Below, one piece after another: positions 27,733-36,121 of a stretch of DNA of 36,764 nt. Source of the DNA: an uncultured Methanomicrobiales archaeon (GTDB taxonomy: Archaea; Halobacteriota; Methanomicrobia; Methanomicrobiales; Methanospirillaceae); assembly GCA_903819595.1 (NCBI GenBank), contig CAIJED010000105.1, positions 1 to 36,764 on the forward strand, given 5' to 3'. The first letter of the stretch is position 1. Every line of letters begins with the position of its first letter. The translations under genes were made by a program, and so were the position numbers. The notes under the pieces were generated by a model, which ran no database searches, had not been told where the DNA came from, and saw nothing but the letters and a program-made list of their open reading frames with translations.

Positions 27733-29184
27733 ATGAAAACTGATATTCGTGTCTTTCTCGCGTTGTTGATGATGAGCTGCATACTTGCAGCGGGCTGCAT
27801 CCAGCCATCAATTCCGAAACCGGCCATGTCCATTTCCCCGCCGGTGACTAAAACACCCACTACCGCAACGCCGACAACACATTCTCCAGCGATTTCTGAC
27901 AAGTCAGTACCAGTACAGTCGACCCGTGACCAGATCGCGTTTGTCGACAGGGCCCGCGTCTATGCGCAGGAGAATGGGAAAGAGAGAGCTATCGCGGAGT
28001 TTAATGACCCGGTGGGACAATTCTCAGTGAATGGCATGTATATCTTTGCCGGGGGATATGATGGTACGGCCCTTGCTGAGCCGTTCAAGCACGAAATCGT
28101 CGGGAAAAACATCCTGGATATCACCGACCCGTACGGCATTCTATTCATCCGGAGCCTAATCGATACTGCCCGGAAAGGGAAGGGACTGGTCAGTTACGGA
28201 TACCGGAACTCGTCGCTGAACAATACTATTCAGCCCTACCTCTCATATGTAACGAACGTTGACAGCACCTATTATATCGGTGCCAGGCTCCACGAGAACA
28301 CAGGTACAGAATTCCCTGCATCCGCAAGGAATATTGCATCGAAAGATATCACACCGGGAGAACTGGTCACGTTTGTCCATGATGCAGCCGATTATGCAAA
28401 TAAATCCGGGAAGGACAAAGCCCTTGCCGCGTTCAATGATCCGGATGGTCCCTTCACGAACGGCGAAATGTATATCATTGCCTACGATTTCAACGCAACA
28501 AACCTCGCACATCCGTACACCCCGTGGATCAGGGGGCTTTCCCTTGAGCATTATACGGACCAGGACTCTGTTGCCACCATCTCCGAACTGTCATGTATTG
28601 CACGTCTCGGGGGCGGGTTCGCCCACACTACCCAACGGATCCCCTCCGGCGAAAAACAGATCTACGTACCAAAACTCCAGTACGTTCTGCCAATAAACGA
28701 GAGCTGGTGGATTGCTGCGTCCATTCTCAACCCGGATTATACCCAGCTCCGCTCAGGGAACCTTGCCGGAATCAGGGTCAGGAACCAGACTAATGAACAG
28801 CTCTTCGCTCTGGTGAATCGTGCAGTTCAGTACGAACAACAGAACGGGAAAGAAAAAACACTCGACGAGATTTCGAAACCTGATGGCGAATTCGTGAACG
28901 GGGACCTCGCGGTATGGGCAGAAACCTTTGATGGGGTGATTCTTGCGGACCCCTTCAATAAAGACATGGTTGGAAAATCCTTCCTCAATTATACCGATCC
29001 ATATGGCGAGAAGACGACCGTTGTCGGCATAGCGACCATCCGGAACGGGACCGGGTTCACCCACGCAATGTTCCCGGATGCCGCCACCGGGTCGGTCGTA
29101 CACGTTCCAAAACTCATTTACATGAAACCGGTTGATGATACCTGGTGGATTGGCAGTGGGATCTATGGTATCCAGGTCCGGTGA
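27733..29184 (+). CDS. Lipoprotein with three tandem Cache-like domains
   Basis: The 483-residue protein begins with a lipoprotein signal (LAAGC, Cys22) and a Pro/Thr-rich linker to about residue 60. Three repeats follow at about 65-190, 208-345 and 355-483. Each opens with a helix of the type F-V-x-x-A-x-x-Y-A-x-x-x-G-K-x-[KR]-A, then FNDPDGPF-like and MYIxAxDxxG-like segments, and ends with a YVxPVxxxWWIGxxI strand. This is the single-Cache pattern used by sensors to bind small molecules outside the cell. There is no membrane signalling domain, so it may be a binding or co-receptor protein. The kinase homologue at 29591-31726 also has a Cache-type sensor and is convergent with it. Confidence 0.82.
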   Translation: MKTDIRVFLALLMMSCILAAGCIQPSIPKPAMSISPPVTKTPTTATPTTHSPAISDKSVPVQSTRDQIAFVDRARVYAQENGKERAIAEFNDPVGQFSVNGMYIFAGGYDGTALAEPFKHEIVGKNILDITDPYGILFIRSLIDTARKGKGLVSYGYRNSSLNNTIQPYLSYVTNVDSTYYIGARLHENTGTEFPASARNIASKDITPGELVTFVHDAADYANKSGKDKALAAFNDPDGPFTNGEMYIIAYDFNATNLAHPYTPWIRGLSLEHYTDQDSVATISELSCIARLGGGFAHTTQRIPSGEKQIYVPKLQYVLPINESWWIAASILNPDYTQLRSGNLAGIRVRNQTNEQLFALVNRAVQYEQQNGKEKTLDEISKPDGEFVNGDLAVWAETFDGVILADPFNKDMVGKSFLNYTDPYGEKTTVVGIATIRNGTGFTHAMFPDAATGSVVHVPKLIYMKPVDDTWWIGSGIYGIQVR

Positions 29185-29590: not shown

Positions 29591-31726
29591 TCAATTTTCT
29601 TCCCGGGCCTCATCCCCTGAATTCCGGTACGCTCCATCTGGTACGTTCATCTCGAACCGTGCCCCTTTCCCGGGCTCACCATTCTCATGGATCGCAATGC
29701 CGGTAATATCAAGAATTTCCCGCACAAAAACGAGACTTCGCATCGAGTCGCGGGCACCAAAGTCGCCGCGGACGAAAATCTGTTCCTTCTTCTCACAAGG
29801 GATTCCAATACCATTATCTTCGAAGACGATTATCACCCCGTCAGGAGTGATCCTGTGCCAGACCCGGATCCGGGTGACATGGCCCCCGTGTTTCACTGAG
29901 TTCTCGAAGATACGCTGGCATACCTTTTCCAGCAGGGGATCAGCGAATATCTCAAGATTTTCCATCTCAAGGTGATACTGGACTTCACTGATGGAGATAT
30001 GGGAGAGCCCGAGCAGCATCGCCATCTTGAGGTTCTGCCATTTAGGGGGTTTTACCCCCATATCCTGGTAATCTTTCGAATATTCAAGGACTTCGTTAAT
30101 TAGCCGGGCGGCCTCATCACATTGTTCCAGGGTCACGAGGATCTGGTCCTGCCCGGTCAATTGATTTTTTGCCAGCTCGAGATAGCCACTCAGGATAAAG
30201 ATCTGGCTGGTTAAGTCTTTTCGAGTCAGCTGCGAGAGCACATTGAGTTTCTGGTTCACCCGTCGCAGGGTGTCCTCGGTAAGTTTACGTTGCGTGATGT
30301 CTTCCCCGGACCGGAGGGTCCCGGTAACTCTCTGGTCTTCATCGCGGATGAGGGAAAAATGCCAGGTAACCTGGCGTTCCTCCCCAATTGCCGTAACAAT
30401 GACGTTTTCAACCTGCTCTGGTAGATACGTCGCGTCGGTCATCATCCGGAAAAAAATCTCCCGGCTTTTTTCCCGTAATCGCACGGGCAGGAAGGTATCA
30501 AACCAGTTCTTTCCGAGGATTTCTTCTTCACTTCTGCAGAGCAGTCTACACCCCGCGGGGTTTACCATGATCACCGCCTGGTCAGGACCAATGGCAATGA
30601 CTGCCGTTCCCACGATTTCAAGATAAGTGCGGGTCTTTTCGCGTTCCTTCCGCAGCGCTCGTTCTGACTCGAACATCTCCATGTAGAACATGGTGCTCTC
30701 CTGCCGCCAGATAATGCAGATCCCGGTCCCGATACTAATCAGGAGAATGGAGACAATGATGATCAGGAGGAGGATCTGCTCCTGAATAGGTCCATATGCC
30801 TCCGATTTATCCATTTTGACAACGATGGACCACGGGGTATCCGGGACATCCCGGATCGCGCTGATAACAGGTACACCCCGGTAATCAGAGCCCTTGATTA
30901 TCCCCGCCTCACCATGCACTGCTTTTACCGCCGGATCCTCTGTCAGGTCCAGCGGAACCCGCAAAGTAAGAGCAGAATGATTGCTGAAACGAAGGTCATT
31001 GAGATAGACCAGATCGTTCCCCTCCCGGCGTACGACCAGGGTCTCTGCCGATGTGCGGGGCCCGGGCCATTCACGGATAAACGGGTAGAGATATATTTCG
31101 GGATCGACCTGAAAACAGACGAATCCGAGTGGCTTGCCTTGTTCCTGGTCATTGTATATGGGAACGATGATCGCAAGGTAGATCTTCTGGTCATGGTCAT
31201 CACGATAAAAGTCAAGAATGGTGATATTCCCGGAGACCAGGACCCGGGGTAGTTCCCGGATTACGGGTGTTGCAACCGGGATTTGTGTATCAGGGACTGA
31301 CAGACGGAGCGTGCCTTTTGTATCGATGAGGTACGCCCGGACATACTGGTTGTACTTTAGTTCTTTTTCAAACCAGGCCTTGAGCGCTTCTCTCGTTTCT
31401 GTATCATTCCCATCATTCATTAAGTCCCGAACGCGTGAAGTGAACACGGGATTGTGGAAAAATATCCCGGCATCCCCCATCTGTTCAGTTTTCCAATCGA
31501 CCAGTTCATTTGCTTTCAAATCCGAAATGGCAATCAGCTGGTGATCGATCTCCAGTTTATAATTTTTCTCGTAATTCTGGTAATATACATAACTGCTTGC
31601 GAGGATCAGGACCGCCATAATAATAAAAAACAGGACCAGGAACTTCCGGGTGCGTGGCCCGTTTCTTTGACCAGGTCCATTGCCCGCCATTATACTCCAT
31701 TCCCAGCGGCCGGCACCCTTTTTCAT
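29591..31726 (-). CDS. Membrane sensor histidine kinase homologue, probably a pseudokinase
   Basis: The 711-residue protein has a membrane helix at 29-49, a large extracellular dCache-type sensor (about 50-310), a second helix at 317-340, a PAS domain (about 363-480), a dimerisation region (about 495-550) and an ATPase domain (about 565-697). The dimerisation helix reads LTRKDLTSQ where related Methanomicrobiales kinases have LTRHDI; Lys503 replaces the phosphoacceptor His. In the ATPase domain the N box (Asn609) and G1 (DNGIGIP, 637-643) are intact, but the G2 segment reads RDSMRSLVF instead of a TGLGL-type loop. It probably binds ATP poorly or differently and signals without autophosphorylation. 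Its ATG overlaps the stop of the preceding gene by 4 nt. ATG 31690 is an alternative start. Confidence 0.85.
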   Translation of the reverse strand: MKKGAGRWEWSIMAGNGPGQRNGPRTRKFLVLFFIIMAVLILASSYVYYQNYEKNYKLEIDHQLIAISDLKANELVDWKTEQMGDAGIFFHNPVFTSRVRDLMNDGNDTETREALKAWFEKELKYNQYVRAYLIDTKGTLRLSVPDTQIPVATPVIRELPRVLVSGNITILDFYRDDHDQKIYLAIIVPIYNDQEQGKPLGFVCFQVDPEIYLYPFIREWPGPRTSAETLVVRREGNDLVYLNDLRFSNHSALTLRVPLDLTEDPAVKAVHGEAGIIKGSDYRGVPVISAIRDVPDTPWSIVVKMDKSEAYGPIQEQILLLIIIVSILLISIGTGICIIWRQESTMFYMEMFESERALRKEREKTRTYLEIVGTAVIAIGPDQAVIMVNPAGCRLLCRSEEEILGKNWFDTFLPVRLREKSREIFFRMMTDATYLPEQVENVIVTAIGEERQVTWHFSLIRDEDQRVTGTLRSGEDITQRKLTEDTLRRVNQKLNVLSQLTRKDLTSQIFILSGYLELAKNQLTGQDQILVTLEQCDEAARLINEVLEYSKDYQDMGVKPPKWQNLKMAMLLGLSHISISEVQYHLEMENLEIFADPLLEKVCQRIFENSVKHGGHVTRIRVWHRITPDGVIIVFEDNGIGIPCEKKEQIFVRGDFGARDSMRSLVFVREILDITGIAIHENGEPGKGARFEMNVPDGAYRNSGDEAREEN

Positions 31727-32208
31727 CTATCCTCACAAACAGCGACACAATCTTCTTTGCGTTCCAGGGCTGAGCACCAGTAGGTCATACTATTTCCACG
31801 GTCATGCATGACATTGTCCATCAGGTTGTAACATGCCTTAACGAGATATCGGACCTTGTCAGAAAATCCGCCCAGCTGAAACCCGGTTGCACAATTCTTC
31901 AGAATATGAAGACCGGCATCCTCGTTGAGCACGGCATTCCCTGCCACATTACGTCCTTTTCTCTTCAAGATAAGAACGGATCGGGTATTCGCCGCTACTC
32001 CGGAAAATTTCCGGGACCTGTTCTGGTCCATATCCACCACACGGAGTCTGGGAACGATAGCGTAATAAGACTCTGTGTTCAGATCCATGAGTGCGTCAAA
32101 TTTACATCCGCAGGTAGGAATCGCATCCTCGTTCCATTGGAAGAATTGGATTAATGTATGCTGGCCCTGTCGGTCATTAACCGCGAGAACATGGACGGCA
32201 GGTACCAT
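31723..32208 (-). CDS. Unknown 161-residue protein, coupled to the kinase homologue
   Basis: I do not recognise a family. The protein is soluble and Cys-containing (PTCGCKF near residue 33, further Cys at the C-terminus: YWCSAL, EDCVAVCED). The codons look genuinely coding. The stop codon overlaps the kinase-homologue start in ATGA, the hallmark of translational coupling. A competing plus frame (31804-32154) lacks a ribosome binding site and coupling. The ATG at 32208 has no ribosome binding site, and a TATA-like element lies only about 12 nt upstream, so the start is uncertain. Context suggests a partner or modulator of the kinase homologue, which is an inference. Confidence 0.6.
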   Translation of the reverse strand: MVPAVHVLAVNDRQGQHTLIQFFQWNEDAIPTCGCKFDALMDLNTESYYAIVPRLRVVDMDQNRSRKFSGVAANTRSVLILKRKGRNVAGNAVLNEDAGLHILKNCATGFQLGGFSDKVRYLVKACYNLMDNVMHDRGNSMTYWCSALERKEDCVAVCEDR

Positions 32209-32646: not shown

Positions 32647-34506
32647 TCAGACACCAATTGCCGCAAGGTTACCCGGGCTCCTCATAAAGAGCCAGTAACC
32701 CCGGGTCGGGTATAATAGTGTGGATTCACCGGGATCACCATTGAAGATAGTCGGTTCATAACTCTGGGTCAAGGCATTGAATCCTATTGAATGTACCCAG
32801 TCAGGTTGGACTGCAAGGAATGTATTCCGGGCTGACGCCGGGTTTAAACCGGTAAACCCTATCGTATTCCAACCTTCCGGCAGGCTCCGGGATGGCGGGA
32901 TAACCATCGGATTCGTATTGTCAAAGGTCAGATTGATATCTGCACCTGAAACGGAATAGATCCAAATACCATACAGCGGTTGTATCGGTGTAGTGGCGAG
33001 AACCATCGCCCAACCTGGCGGGCTTCGTGACCCGTCCCACATGAAGGCAGAATGGCCCCCCATATTTACTGGACTAAATATCATGCCGGTATTGGACCCG
33101 GTTGCGAGTCTTTTGGGTGTTGAAACCAGGTTCCAACCCGGTGAGAGGGTGATCCGATCAGGTGTCGGTGGAGGGCTGGAGATGAATGAAGCCGGTGAGG
33201 AGATAAAATATGGGTCTCTGACCGCATCAGGATAGATTGAGAGCATTTTCTTCTGTTTTGAGGGATCAGATGCAGAGTAAATCACCCCCGGCTCATCCTT
33301 TCCATTATCAATGTACTGCCCGTCGGGAATGAGGAAATTCTTGTTGACAAGAGTTGGATCATTTCCGCTTTTTCCCTCTTTCTTGATCACATTGAACCAG
33401 ACAATCCCCTTGATATCAGGATAGAGGGACGAGAGTGACCCGGGGTTATATACCTCTGTAACGTGGGAAACTTTAAGCGATTCCTCCCGGCCAGAATCCC
33501 CCTGTCCGTCACTGCTCGTCTCGGTGAAGATGAACGGATGGTTTCTCTCCTTCGCGTAATAATCGTAAAACCCTTTGATACTGGAAAGAGTAGTGGGGCC
33601 CCCTGGCCAGGAATACCAGGTCATGCCCACCCAGTCGACTGAATCTGAAGGGAGCGGTTCAAGGTTGTCATTATTTCCAGGCCAGTAGACTTTCCGGTCG
33701 TCCTTTGCCTGTGCAATATTTCCTGCCCAGACGACCTGGACATTATCGCCGCCGTTCTGGTGAACGAGAACGTACGCATCCCGGAACCACTGCCGGAATG
33801 CTTTTTTCGCCGGGCTGTCCACATTGTCATTTACTTCAGGATTTACTTCGTTGTACGTATTGAACTCCGGGGCAAGCCAGATGAGAATTGTCGCACCTTT
33901 TCCCGAACCGTCCTTGTTCCGGTCTGATACATCTTTTAATTTTGTCGCAAGGTCAGTAAGAATTTCTCTTCCTGTTTTCCCATCAGGGTAGATATCGGAC
34001 AACGAAAGGGGATGTCCGTTGTAGGGTGCGAGTGCTATCATCGGGACTCCACCCTGGTTGATGACTTTTTCAGCCCAGATATCCGGCCCTGGGGATGCGG
34101 TATAGAGTTTTTTCCCATAATTGTTGTCCGGGTAGTAGTTCATCAGGTAATACCGGGAAAATATCACCTGTTTTGCACCGGACCCGGGAGTTATCGCATC
34201 TGTTGATGCTCGGAATGATAAAATCCCGGTATCGATAGAATCAATACCACCGGACACCGTTTCTCCGTATGACTCCGGATGGTCCATGACCTGTGTCTCA
34301 TAGAGATGACCGTCCTGGTTGCTGTTCTTAAAGTTATTCGGACCGAGTGTCCCTGTATTCCCACCGAGGTACACACCCACGTAGGTCCCATTCCCTGAAA
34401 GAAGACCTTCATTGACCGTGGGGATGTGAACTGCCGCGAGTGGCTGGACCAACAGACAGATTCCTAAAATAATTCCAGATACAATTATGAGTCTCGTAGG
34501 TTCCAT
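32647..34506 (-). CDS. Secreted GH26-like glycoside hydrolase with C-terminal surface domains
   Basis: The 619-residue exported protein has a signal peptide (about 1-25). A TIM-barrel-like catalytic part covers about 40-400, with ILIWLAPEFNTYNE (Glu214) and HPFIFTETSSDG (Glu329) as the probable acid/base and nucleophile, spaced as in GH26 and related clan GH-A enzymes. DWVGMTWYSW lies between them. A linker (SSPPPTP) leads to two related C-terminal repeats starting SPGWNLVSTPK (about 455) and PEGWNTIGFTG (about 543), a pattern seen in archaeal surface proteins. Likely role: cutting or remodelling an extracellular or envelope polysaccharide. A TATA-like element lies about 30 nt upstream. GH26 is the best guess, not certain. 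Confidence 0.75.
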   Translation of the reverse strand: MEPTRLIIVSGIILGICLLVQPLAAVHIPTVNEGLLSGNGTYVGVYLGGNTGTLGPNNFKNSNQDGHLYETQVMDHPESYGETVSGGIDSIDTGILSFRASTDAITPGSGAKQVIFSRYYLMNYYPDNNYGKKLYTASPGPDIWAEKVINQGGVPMIALAPYNGHPLSLSDIYPDGKTGREILTDLATKLKDVSDRNKDGSGKGATILIWLAPEFNTYNEVNPEVNDNVDSPAKKAFRQWFRDAYVLVHQNGGDNVQVVWAGNIAQAKDDRKVYWPGNNDNLEPLPSDSVDWVGMTWYSWPGGPTTLSSIKGFYDYYAKERNHPFIFTETSSDGQGDSGREESLKVSHVTEVYNPGSLSSLYPDIKGIVWFNVIKKEGKSGNDPTLVNKNFLIPDGQYIDNGKDEPGVIYSASDPSKQKKMLSIYPDAVRDPYFISSPASFISSPPPTPDRITLSPGWNLVSTPKRLATGSNTGMIFSPVNMGGHSAFMWDGSRSPPGWAMVLATTPIQPLYGIWIYSVSGADINLTFDNTNPMVIPPSRSLPEGWNTIGFTGLNPASARNTFLAVQPDWVHSIGFNALTQSYEPTIFNGDPGESTLLYPTRGYWLFMRSPGNLAAIGV

Positions 34507-35095: not shown

Positions 35096-36121
35096 ATGAC
35101 ACCGGTTTCTCTCAAGAACGGAGCATTTTATAACTGTGACTGTATTACCGGGGCCCGGGAATATATCCCTGATAACTCAGTGGACTTAATCATTACCGAT
35201 CCACCCTACGGGATTAACGGGGACAAACTGCACAAACATTACAACCGAAACGAAGAATTTGTCGTTGGAGGGTATGTTGAAATCCCGCAAAATGAGTATG
35301 CAGATTTCAGTATCCTGTGGATAACCGAGGCAGAACGCGTGTTACGACCCGGAGGTTCGCTCTATATCGTATCGGGATACACAAATCTTATCGATATCCT
35401 GAATGCCTTACGGAACACCCGCCTTAACGAGATAAATCATATTATCTGGAAATATAATTTTGGGGTTTTTACACGTCAAAAATACGTTTCATCCCATTAT
35501 CACATACTCTTTTACGAAAAGCCGGGGGGTACCCGGACATTCAATCTCGAATCACGTTATGGCCTCGACGAAAGGAACGGGGAGAACCGGTCACTCAATA
35601 ATTATGATCGGGAAGATGTCTGGGTGATTAACAGGGAGTACAAACCTGGCCAGGTAAAGAACAAAAATGAACTGCCCACAAAATTACTCATTAAAATGAT
35701 GCAATACAGCAGTAATGAAGGCGACCTTATCTGTGATTTCTTCCTTGGAGGATTTTCCACCGCAAAAGTCGCAATTGGTCTTAACCGGAGGGTGACAGGG
35801 TTTGAAATTTCCTGCGGGATGTTCGAGACTAAGACCAGGGAGATTGCCGCAATAATTCCCGGCAATCTTATTCCAGGACTAAGAAATCCGACAGTCAGTA
35901 CGCTTGAAAACCCGGGAAAAGCCTGGACCGACGACGAGTTGCAACGTCTGAAAATGGGATTTATGAGGCTTAATGTAATTGGAATGACGAAAAAGGATAT
36001 AATCGCGGAACTGGGTGCAGAGCACGGGCGGGGACGTTTCGCAATTTTAAACGCACTCAAAAAAATAAATTGTTACAATGACGTAAAGTCTTCACCGGTT
36101 ACATTAGATAAATTCTCGTGA
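35096..36121 (+). CDS. Beta-class DNA methyltransferase (N4-C or N6-A), apparently solitary
   Basis: The 341-residue enzyme has catalytic DPPY at residues 35-38, followed by LRPGGSLYIVSG (about 83-94). The S-adenosylmethionine motif comes late, as DFFLGGFSTAKVAI (about 214-227) after NELPTKLLIKMMQ. Catalytic motif first and cofactor motif last is the beta class, which modifies exocyclic amino groups in DNA. The consensus F-x-G-S-G is F-L-G-G-F here, a slight departure. A C-terminal helical segment (about 285-332; WTDDELQRLK then GMTKKDIIAELG) resembles a SANT/HTH unit that may help target recognition. No restriction gene is adjacent in the window. The substrate sequence is unknown. Confidence 0.9.
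   Translation: MTPVSLKNGAFYNCDCITGAREYIPDNSVDLIITDPPYGINGDKLHKHYNRNEEFVVGGYVEIPQNEYADFSILWITEAERVLRPGGSLYIVSGYTNLIDILNALRNTRLNEINHIIWKYNFGVFTRQKYVSSHYHILFYEKPGGTRTFNLESRYGLDERNGENRSLNNYDREDVWVINREYKPGQVKNKNELPTKLLIKMMQYSSNEGDLICDFFLGGFSTAKVAIGLNRRVTGFEISCGMFETKTREIAAIIPGNLIPGLRNPTVSTLENPGKAWTDDELQRLKMGFMRLNVIGMTKKDIIAELGAEHGRGRFAILNALKKINCYNDVKSSPVTLDKFS

Follow-up and report, generated by a model that had tools for sequence, protein, structure and literature searches.

Does a sensor kinase homologue that has lost both its phosphoacceptor histidine and its ATP-lid glycines still have a function, or is it a kinase gene on its way out? This question is raised by a gene on the minus strand of the window, a 36,764-nucleotide stretch of DNA from an uncultured Methanomicrobiales archaeon (contig CAIJED010000105.1). 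A preliminary description of the locus had proposed a functional pseudokinase that may signal by conformational change. Because the family is conserved, under selection and linked to active kinase genes, we lean towards a conserved archaeal family of pseudo-histidine-kinases, non-catalytic sensor partners that would change the output of active His-kinases, often of the one encoded next door.

A transmitter without phosphoacceptor histidine and ATP-lid glycines

The gene (29591-31726, minus strand) was delineated from the open reading frame, its translation, Pfam matches and hydrophobic windows. It encodes a membrane sensor protein of 711 residues without internal stops. The domain order is TM, Cache-like, TM, PAS, DHp-like and HATPase_c-like. 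Hydrophobic 19-residue windows start at residues 25-32 and 311-323, and a sub-threshold Pfam match to dCache_1 is located between these two stretches. PAS_4 and HATPase_c (5e-10) score above the Pfam cut-off; HisKA was not found by the same search. The AF2 model has a pLDDT of 85, and its sole segment below 50 corresponds to lid residues 655-658. A Foldseek search with this model matched HK853 and, lower down, DivL (PDB 4q20).

The degenerate H-box LTRKDLTSQ (residues 500-508; 30203-30229, minus strand) was located by motif search, alignment to HK853 and column statistics. A profile built from 58 relatives places K503 (codon AAA) on H260 of HK853, D504 on E261 and S507 on T264. Thus, lysine stands at the phosphoacceptor site, as the preliminary description had read it, whereas D504 (H+1) is still an acid and S507 (H+4, the phosphatase position) still carries a hydroxyl. 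Displacement of the histidine along the helix, which would have overturned that description, is ruled out by the HK853 profile alignment together with the family alignment.

Comparison with 76 His-bearing relatives shows an invariant histidine at the place of K503, and glycines at the places of S661 (96%) and S664 (99%). The two serines belong to the segment RDSMRSLVF (residues 659-667; 29726-29752, minus strand; motif search, column statistics and pLDDT), which replaces the G2 box and ATP lid. Motif search and column statistics also delimit two elements that are kept, the N box NSVKHGG with Asn609 (residues 609-615; 29882-29902, minus strand) and the G1 box DNGIGIP (residues 637-643; 29798-29818, minus strand). 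The segments VREILDITG (residues 668-676) and GEPGKGARFE (residues 683-692) follow the lid. All motifs quoted earlier (LTRKDLTSQ, DNGIGIP, RDSMRSLVF, VREILDITG and GEPGKGARFE) were recovered on the minus strand at the places given for them, and the reported loss of the G2 loop and retention of the N box both hold.

Active HisKA-type kinases are recognised by a phosphoacceptor histidine and by a HATPase_c domain with N, G1 and G2 boxes; the window protein lacks the histidine and the G2 box. Because the phosphoacceptor is missing and the lid glycines are gone, autokinase activity is very unlikely. Judging from these residues, autophosphorylation at the canonical site would not be possible, and autophosphorylation anywhere in the protein is probably absent.

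A conserved family and the order of the losses

A search of the window genome with the DHp-CA region gave 73 matches, of which six form a close group, made of the window gene and five paralogues at 57-74% identity; beyond these, identity falls to 42% or less over full length. In each of the six, K or Q stands for the His and the G2 glycines are missing. Among the readable transmitters of this genome, 49 are His-bearing, 6 belong to the group of the window gene and 3 are other non-His forms. When 232 genomes of the order were searched for close relatives (identity of at least 54%), this G2-less group, hereafter group A, was found to comprise 39 members in 12 genomes and 5 genera of one family; named records place it in Methanoregula and in Methanomicrobiales MAGs. 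The GxG of G2 is absent in 39/39 members and K, Q, R or E occupies the His site in 38/39, so that the two changes, whose co-occurrence among homologues had been named as a check, do go together. The exception, L038 (L038:1501-2136), has the H-box ITRHDINNQ and still lacks G2. Its DNA resembles that of a neighbouring His-kinase gene only around the H-box, and its histidine was apparently regained by a short gene conversion from this next-door kinase. Three further relatives without G2, with the H-box sequence LTKTELAN, occur in a sister (sixth) genus.

The altered segments have a conserved pattern of their own in about 40 genes, with L665 in 100% and F667 in 98% for the lid and L505 in 100% for the H-box. 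Since both losses recur in some 40 relatives, those of the window gene are not due to chance. Comparison of the window gene with its sister in genome G126 gives a dN of 0.17 and a dS of 0.72 for the entire gene (dN/dS 0.24), and 0.14 and 0.78 for DHp-CA (dN/dS 0.18). Other pairs have a dN of about 0.06 for a dS of 0.35-0.71. Overall, dN/dS values span 0.1-0.25, and active neighbours give similar ratios. Purifying selection thus acts on the window gene in spite of both losses, and the gene is not decaying. It combines a histidine kinase fold, lost catalytic residues and selection on the gene, as pseudo-histidine kinases do.

The DNA upstream is what could suggest a kinase being lost. An open reading frame of 161 residues (31723-32208, minus strand; traced by its matches to a 1275-residue kinase) overlaps the start of the pseudokinase gene. 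Its residues 1-123 match the REC domain of the 1275-residue kinase (E=2e-10) and its residues 86-160 match the N-box-to-G1 part of the same protein (E=3e-4). In G126, the 1275-residue kinase is intact in the same place, beside the orthologue L031 (L067/L069). By this comparison, the 161-residue frame is the internally deleted remnant of a His-kinase running from a REC to a HATPase domain. Broken kinase neighbours also occur at 2 of the 5 close paralogues in the window genome. Even so, the full-length frame, the low dN/dS and the shared lid and H-box patterns make decay highly improbable, and the notion of a single odd or decaying gene is rejected on the number of relatives and on dN/dS. The earlier verdict of a conserved pseudokinase is borne out on this point.

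At the two paralogues concerned, L207 (G000:C104) and L208 (G000:C340), the upstream His-kinase genes look partial or broken, which brings damaged partners to 3/6 copies of the group in the window genome. The REC active-site residues of the 161-residue remnant are also altered.

The order of the two losses was addressed with a larger set of relatives, group B (about 70 sampled; LN-x-[VI]-T-F-[QNTSEDAMK]-D-I-Q), which has no His and mostly keeps G2 (lid columns: position 661, G87; position 664, G86). The H-box and lid columns were left out of a first tree, and the Ser-His columns described below were also left out of a second one. Both trees, which were quick reconstructions with SH-aLRT as sole branch support, split the His-bearing kinases from one His-less clade made of group B and group A. 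Group A with the sister genus has a support of 96-98, and the nesting of group A with group B has 92-98. L056 (TFQDIQT, no G2) is the nearest neighbour of group A and is weakly placed (supports of 92 and 62). Since group B mostly keeps G2 and group A is nested with it, the trees indicate that the histidine was lost first, in the common ancestor of the large clade, and G2 afterwards, in the subclade. The preliminary description had spoken of two independent losses in an otherwise intact protein. Two losses there are; they are successive rather than independent. The frame is indeed full-length, but "intact" is too strong, since the N-box Asn is relaxed in the subclade (85% vs 100%) and the kinase gene directly upstream survives only as the deleted remnant.

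The histidine has a varied history elsewhere. Within group B, the TFxDIQ group, L143 (L143:1498-2133; VTFHDIQS) has the histidine again, encoded by CAT. At least three further His losses, apparently independent, are found on unrelated branches (V[AT]YQDIQ, ITRQDIL and ITRRDIL; L070:10648-11271, L221:2742-3371, L255:5233-5862; L228:2777-3394; L257:55-696). The first of these sets (L070, L221 and L255; V[AT]YQDIQ) also has an odd lid, GGEGKF.

Among 14 genomes from other orders, the His-less clade was not found; 20/20 hits are His-bearing and without Ser-His. This bears on RdmS and MsmS, the Methanosarcina acetivorans kinases of MA_type 2, which are likewise histidine kinase-like proteins of a methanogen. 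They are without an H-box, and autokinase activity is absent from the member that was tested (PMC11784639). Type 2 proteins are without the whole H-box region, whereas the window family keeps the H-box helix and has lost the lid. Because relatives outside the order are all His-bearing in these 14 genomes, among which M. acetivorans was not singled out, the loss in the window clade looks separate from that of MA_type 2.

Conserved residues of the His-less clade

G1 is near-invariant in group A (D637, G639 and G641 in 98-100%), and the acid at H+1 is present in 100%. The His site, in contrast, is free to vary: K, Q, R, E or T in group A and Q, N, T, S, E, D, A, M or K in group B, so that a fixed substitute acceptor is rejected. 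These columns bear on a possible ATP-dependent activity elsewhere, in which ATP would be bound through G1 and the N box and another residue, or a partner, would be phosphorylated. RdmS and MsmS provide a precedent, since these H-box-less proteins bind and hydrolyse ATP (PMC11784639), and G1 is kept and the N box mostly kept in group A. But the lid glycines are gone in every member of the group, 15% have another residue for the N-box Asn, and no replacement acceptor is conserved, with almost anything accepted in group B. We therefore regard such an activity as unlikely.

The His-less clade has a signature of its own in the CA domain. Ser575-His576 (29999-30004, minus strand; column statistics) follows closely on the first CA helix, which ends immediately before the dyad in the AF2 model. 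It is found in 112/113 sequences of the His-less clade, against 3/110 His-bearing ones (L007, L038 and L143); the frequencies of Ser and His are 99/99% in group B and 100/98% in group A. E600 is near-invariant in the clade (98-99%) vs 36% in His-bearing kinases, and F510 is likewise near-invariant.

L007 (L007:1501-2136) and its 92% relative L281 have the phosphoacceptor histidine and the dyad together, and possibly represent a transitional form or a recombinant. At the place of the dyad, A-S-[LI]-D is common among the nearest His-bearing kinases. The dyad can thus precede the His loss or exist without it. Loss of the histidine and gain of the dyad always occurring together is rejected, as L007 and L281 have both and at least three His losses are without Ser-His.

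A bolder reading would make the order-wide His-less clade a distinct class of non-kinase transmitters. Ser575-His576, with Glu600, would then be a new functional centre of the CA domain, to which a phosphoryl or ligand site had moved when the histidine was abandoned, and the G2-less subclade would supply the regulatory member of kinase/pseudokinase units made of two genes. We consider this whole proposal quite unlikely.

Neighbouring kinases and possible output

Both flanks are known for 27 group A genes, and 12 of these overlap an intact His-kinase gene of the same strand or have one within 200 bp. The same arrangement is seen for 4/56 His-kinases and for 1/29 members of group B. The excess is significant against both (Fisher p = 1.3e-4 and 3e-4, respectively), with counts drawn from fragmented MAGs and controls partly from other genomes. 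The kinase is upstream in 10 pairs and downstream in 9. The paired transmitters are 37-43% identical, the sensors differ, and the N-termini mostly share PAS-level similarity only; with both gene orders represented, recent tandem duplication is rejected as the source of the adjacency. No enrichment of REC domains was observed in the partner kinases (8/16 vs 31/72). This leaves unsupported the idea of a pseudokinase reading the REC domains of REC-rich partners, and marks no particular docking target.

The Cache-like and PAS sensor and the DHp/CA fold are kept, and the pseudokinase may pair with an active kinase through the DHp bundle. Counting against a kinase partner, an intact kinase neighbour is lacking for 15/27 members, including the window gene, and for 3/3 members of the sister genus. 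The 15 genes are what would favour a sensor acting by conformation or localisation alone, the strict form of the earlier idea. With active kinases adjacent far more often than in the controls, and with nothing pointing to another output, a sensor without any kinase partner seems very unlikely. The pairing and the residue kept at the phosphatase position point to a role directed at a partner or at a response regulator.

Alternatively, the retained DHp surface, with its acid at H+1 and N, S or T at H+4, could bind or dephosphorylate a receiver domain. In its full form, this would make the protein a stand-alone response-regulator phosphatase, loss of the histidine and lid leaving phosphatase activity only. 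In HisKA kinases the phosphatase residue is Thr or Asn at H+4, and the DHp domain alone can suffice for this activity (PMC3510030); HATPase-less archaeal histidine kinase-like proteins have been proposed to be phosphatases (PMC5847659). Since the H+4 position, aligned with T264 of HK853, keeps an amide or hydroxyl (N, S or T in 97% of group A and likewise across groups A and B), the DHp face may indeed bind or dephosphorylate a receiver. The conserved H+1 acid is no argument for a phosphatase, because in CrdS it is required for kinase and not for phosphatase activity (PMC3510030). Moreover, H+4 varies in group A (N65/S22/T10/I2, with Ser in the window protein), whereas active kinases have N97, and DivL, which has the same fold, binds DivK~P without phosphatase activity (PMC4211667). 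A dedicated phosphatase thus appears rather unlikely.

The sensor-partner reading has its closest known counterpart in DivL of Caulobacter, a pseudo-histidine kinase that has neither kinase nor phosphatase activity, binds DivK~P and controls CckA (PMC4211667). Both have a histidine kinase fold with PAS and a replaced histidine, and would also share weak or no nucleotide use and the regulation of another histidine kinase. They differ at the His site, with Tyr in DivL and K, Q, R, E or T in group A; all group A members lack the lid glycines, and they occur as many paralogues per genome, often beside active kinases. The window protein is not a DivL orthologue, having Lys at the site, 16-17% identity by Foldseek and similarity at HMM level only. 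A catalytically dead histidine kinase can also alter the output of a paralogous kinase, as observed with the CA-frameshift pseudokinase ChrS of Corynebacterium glutamicum (PMC9491836); ChrS is laboratory-evolved and dead through CA truncation with its His intact, whereas group A is a natural family. The parent family is that of the Methanomicrobiales HisKA/HATPase_c His-kinases (ITRHDINNQ type), which have the same transmitter architecture at 35-43% identity and differ by their His and GxG lid and by the absence of the Ser-His dyad.

We found no paper describing group A in the open literature, an absence that is not proof. Knowledge of pseudo-histidine-kinases comes mainly from isolated cases, among them DivL. 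The archaeal order studied here has a large clade of His-less transmitters and, within it, an ATP-lid-less subclade whose members occur several to a genome and are frequently paired with active kinase genes. The abundance of paralogues and pairs offers natural replicates for testing the role of a dead sensor kinase. The clade is also a warning that, among methanogen proteins with a histidine kinase annotation, many cannot be ordinary kinases.

Other genes of the window are noted here for completeness. The pseudokinase gene adjoins, on the opposite strand, a gene whose product looks secreted and contains three single-Cache (sCache_2/dCache_2) repeats (27733-29184, plus strand). A 619-residue protein whose N terminus is signal-like, and for which Pfam gave no match, is encoded at 32647-34506 (minus strand), and an N6_N4 DNA methyltransferase (Pfam E=2e-32) at 35096-36121 (plus strand).
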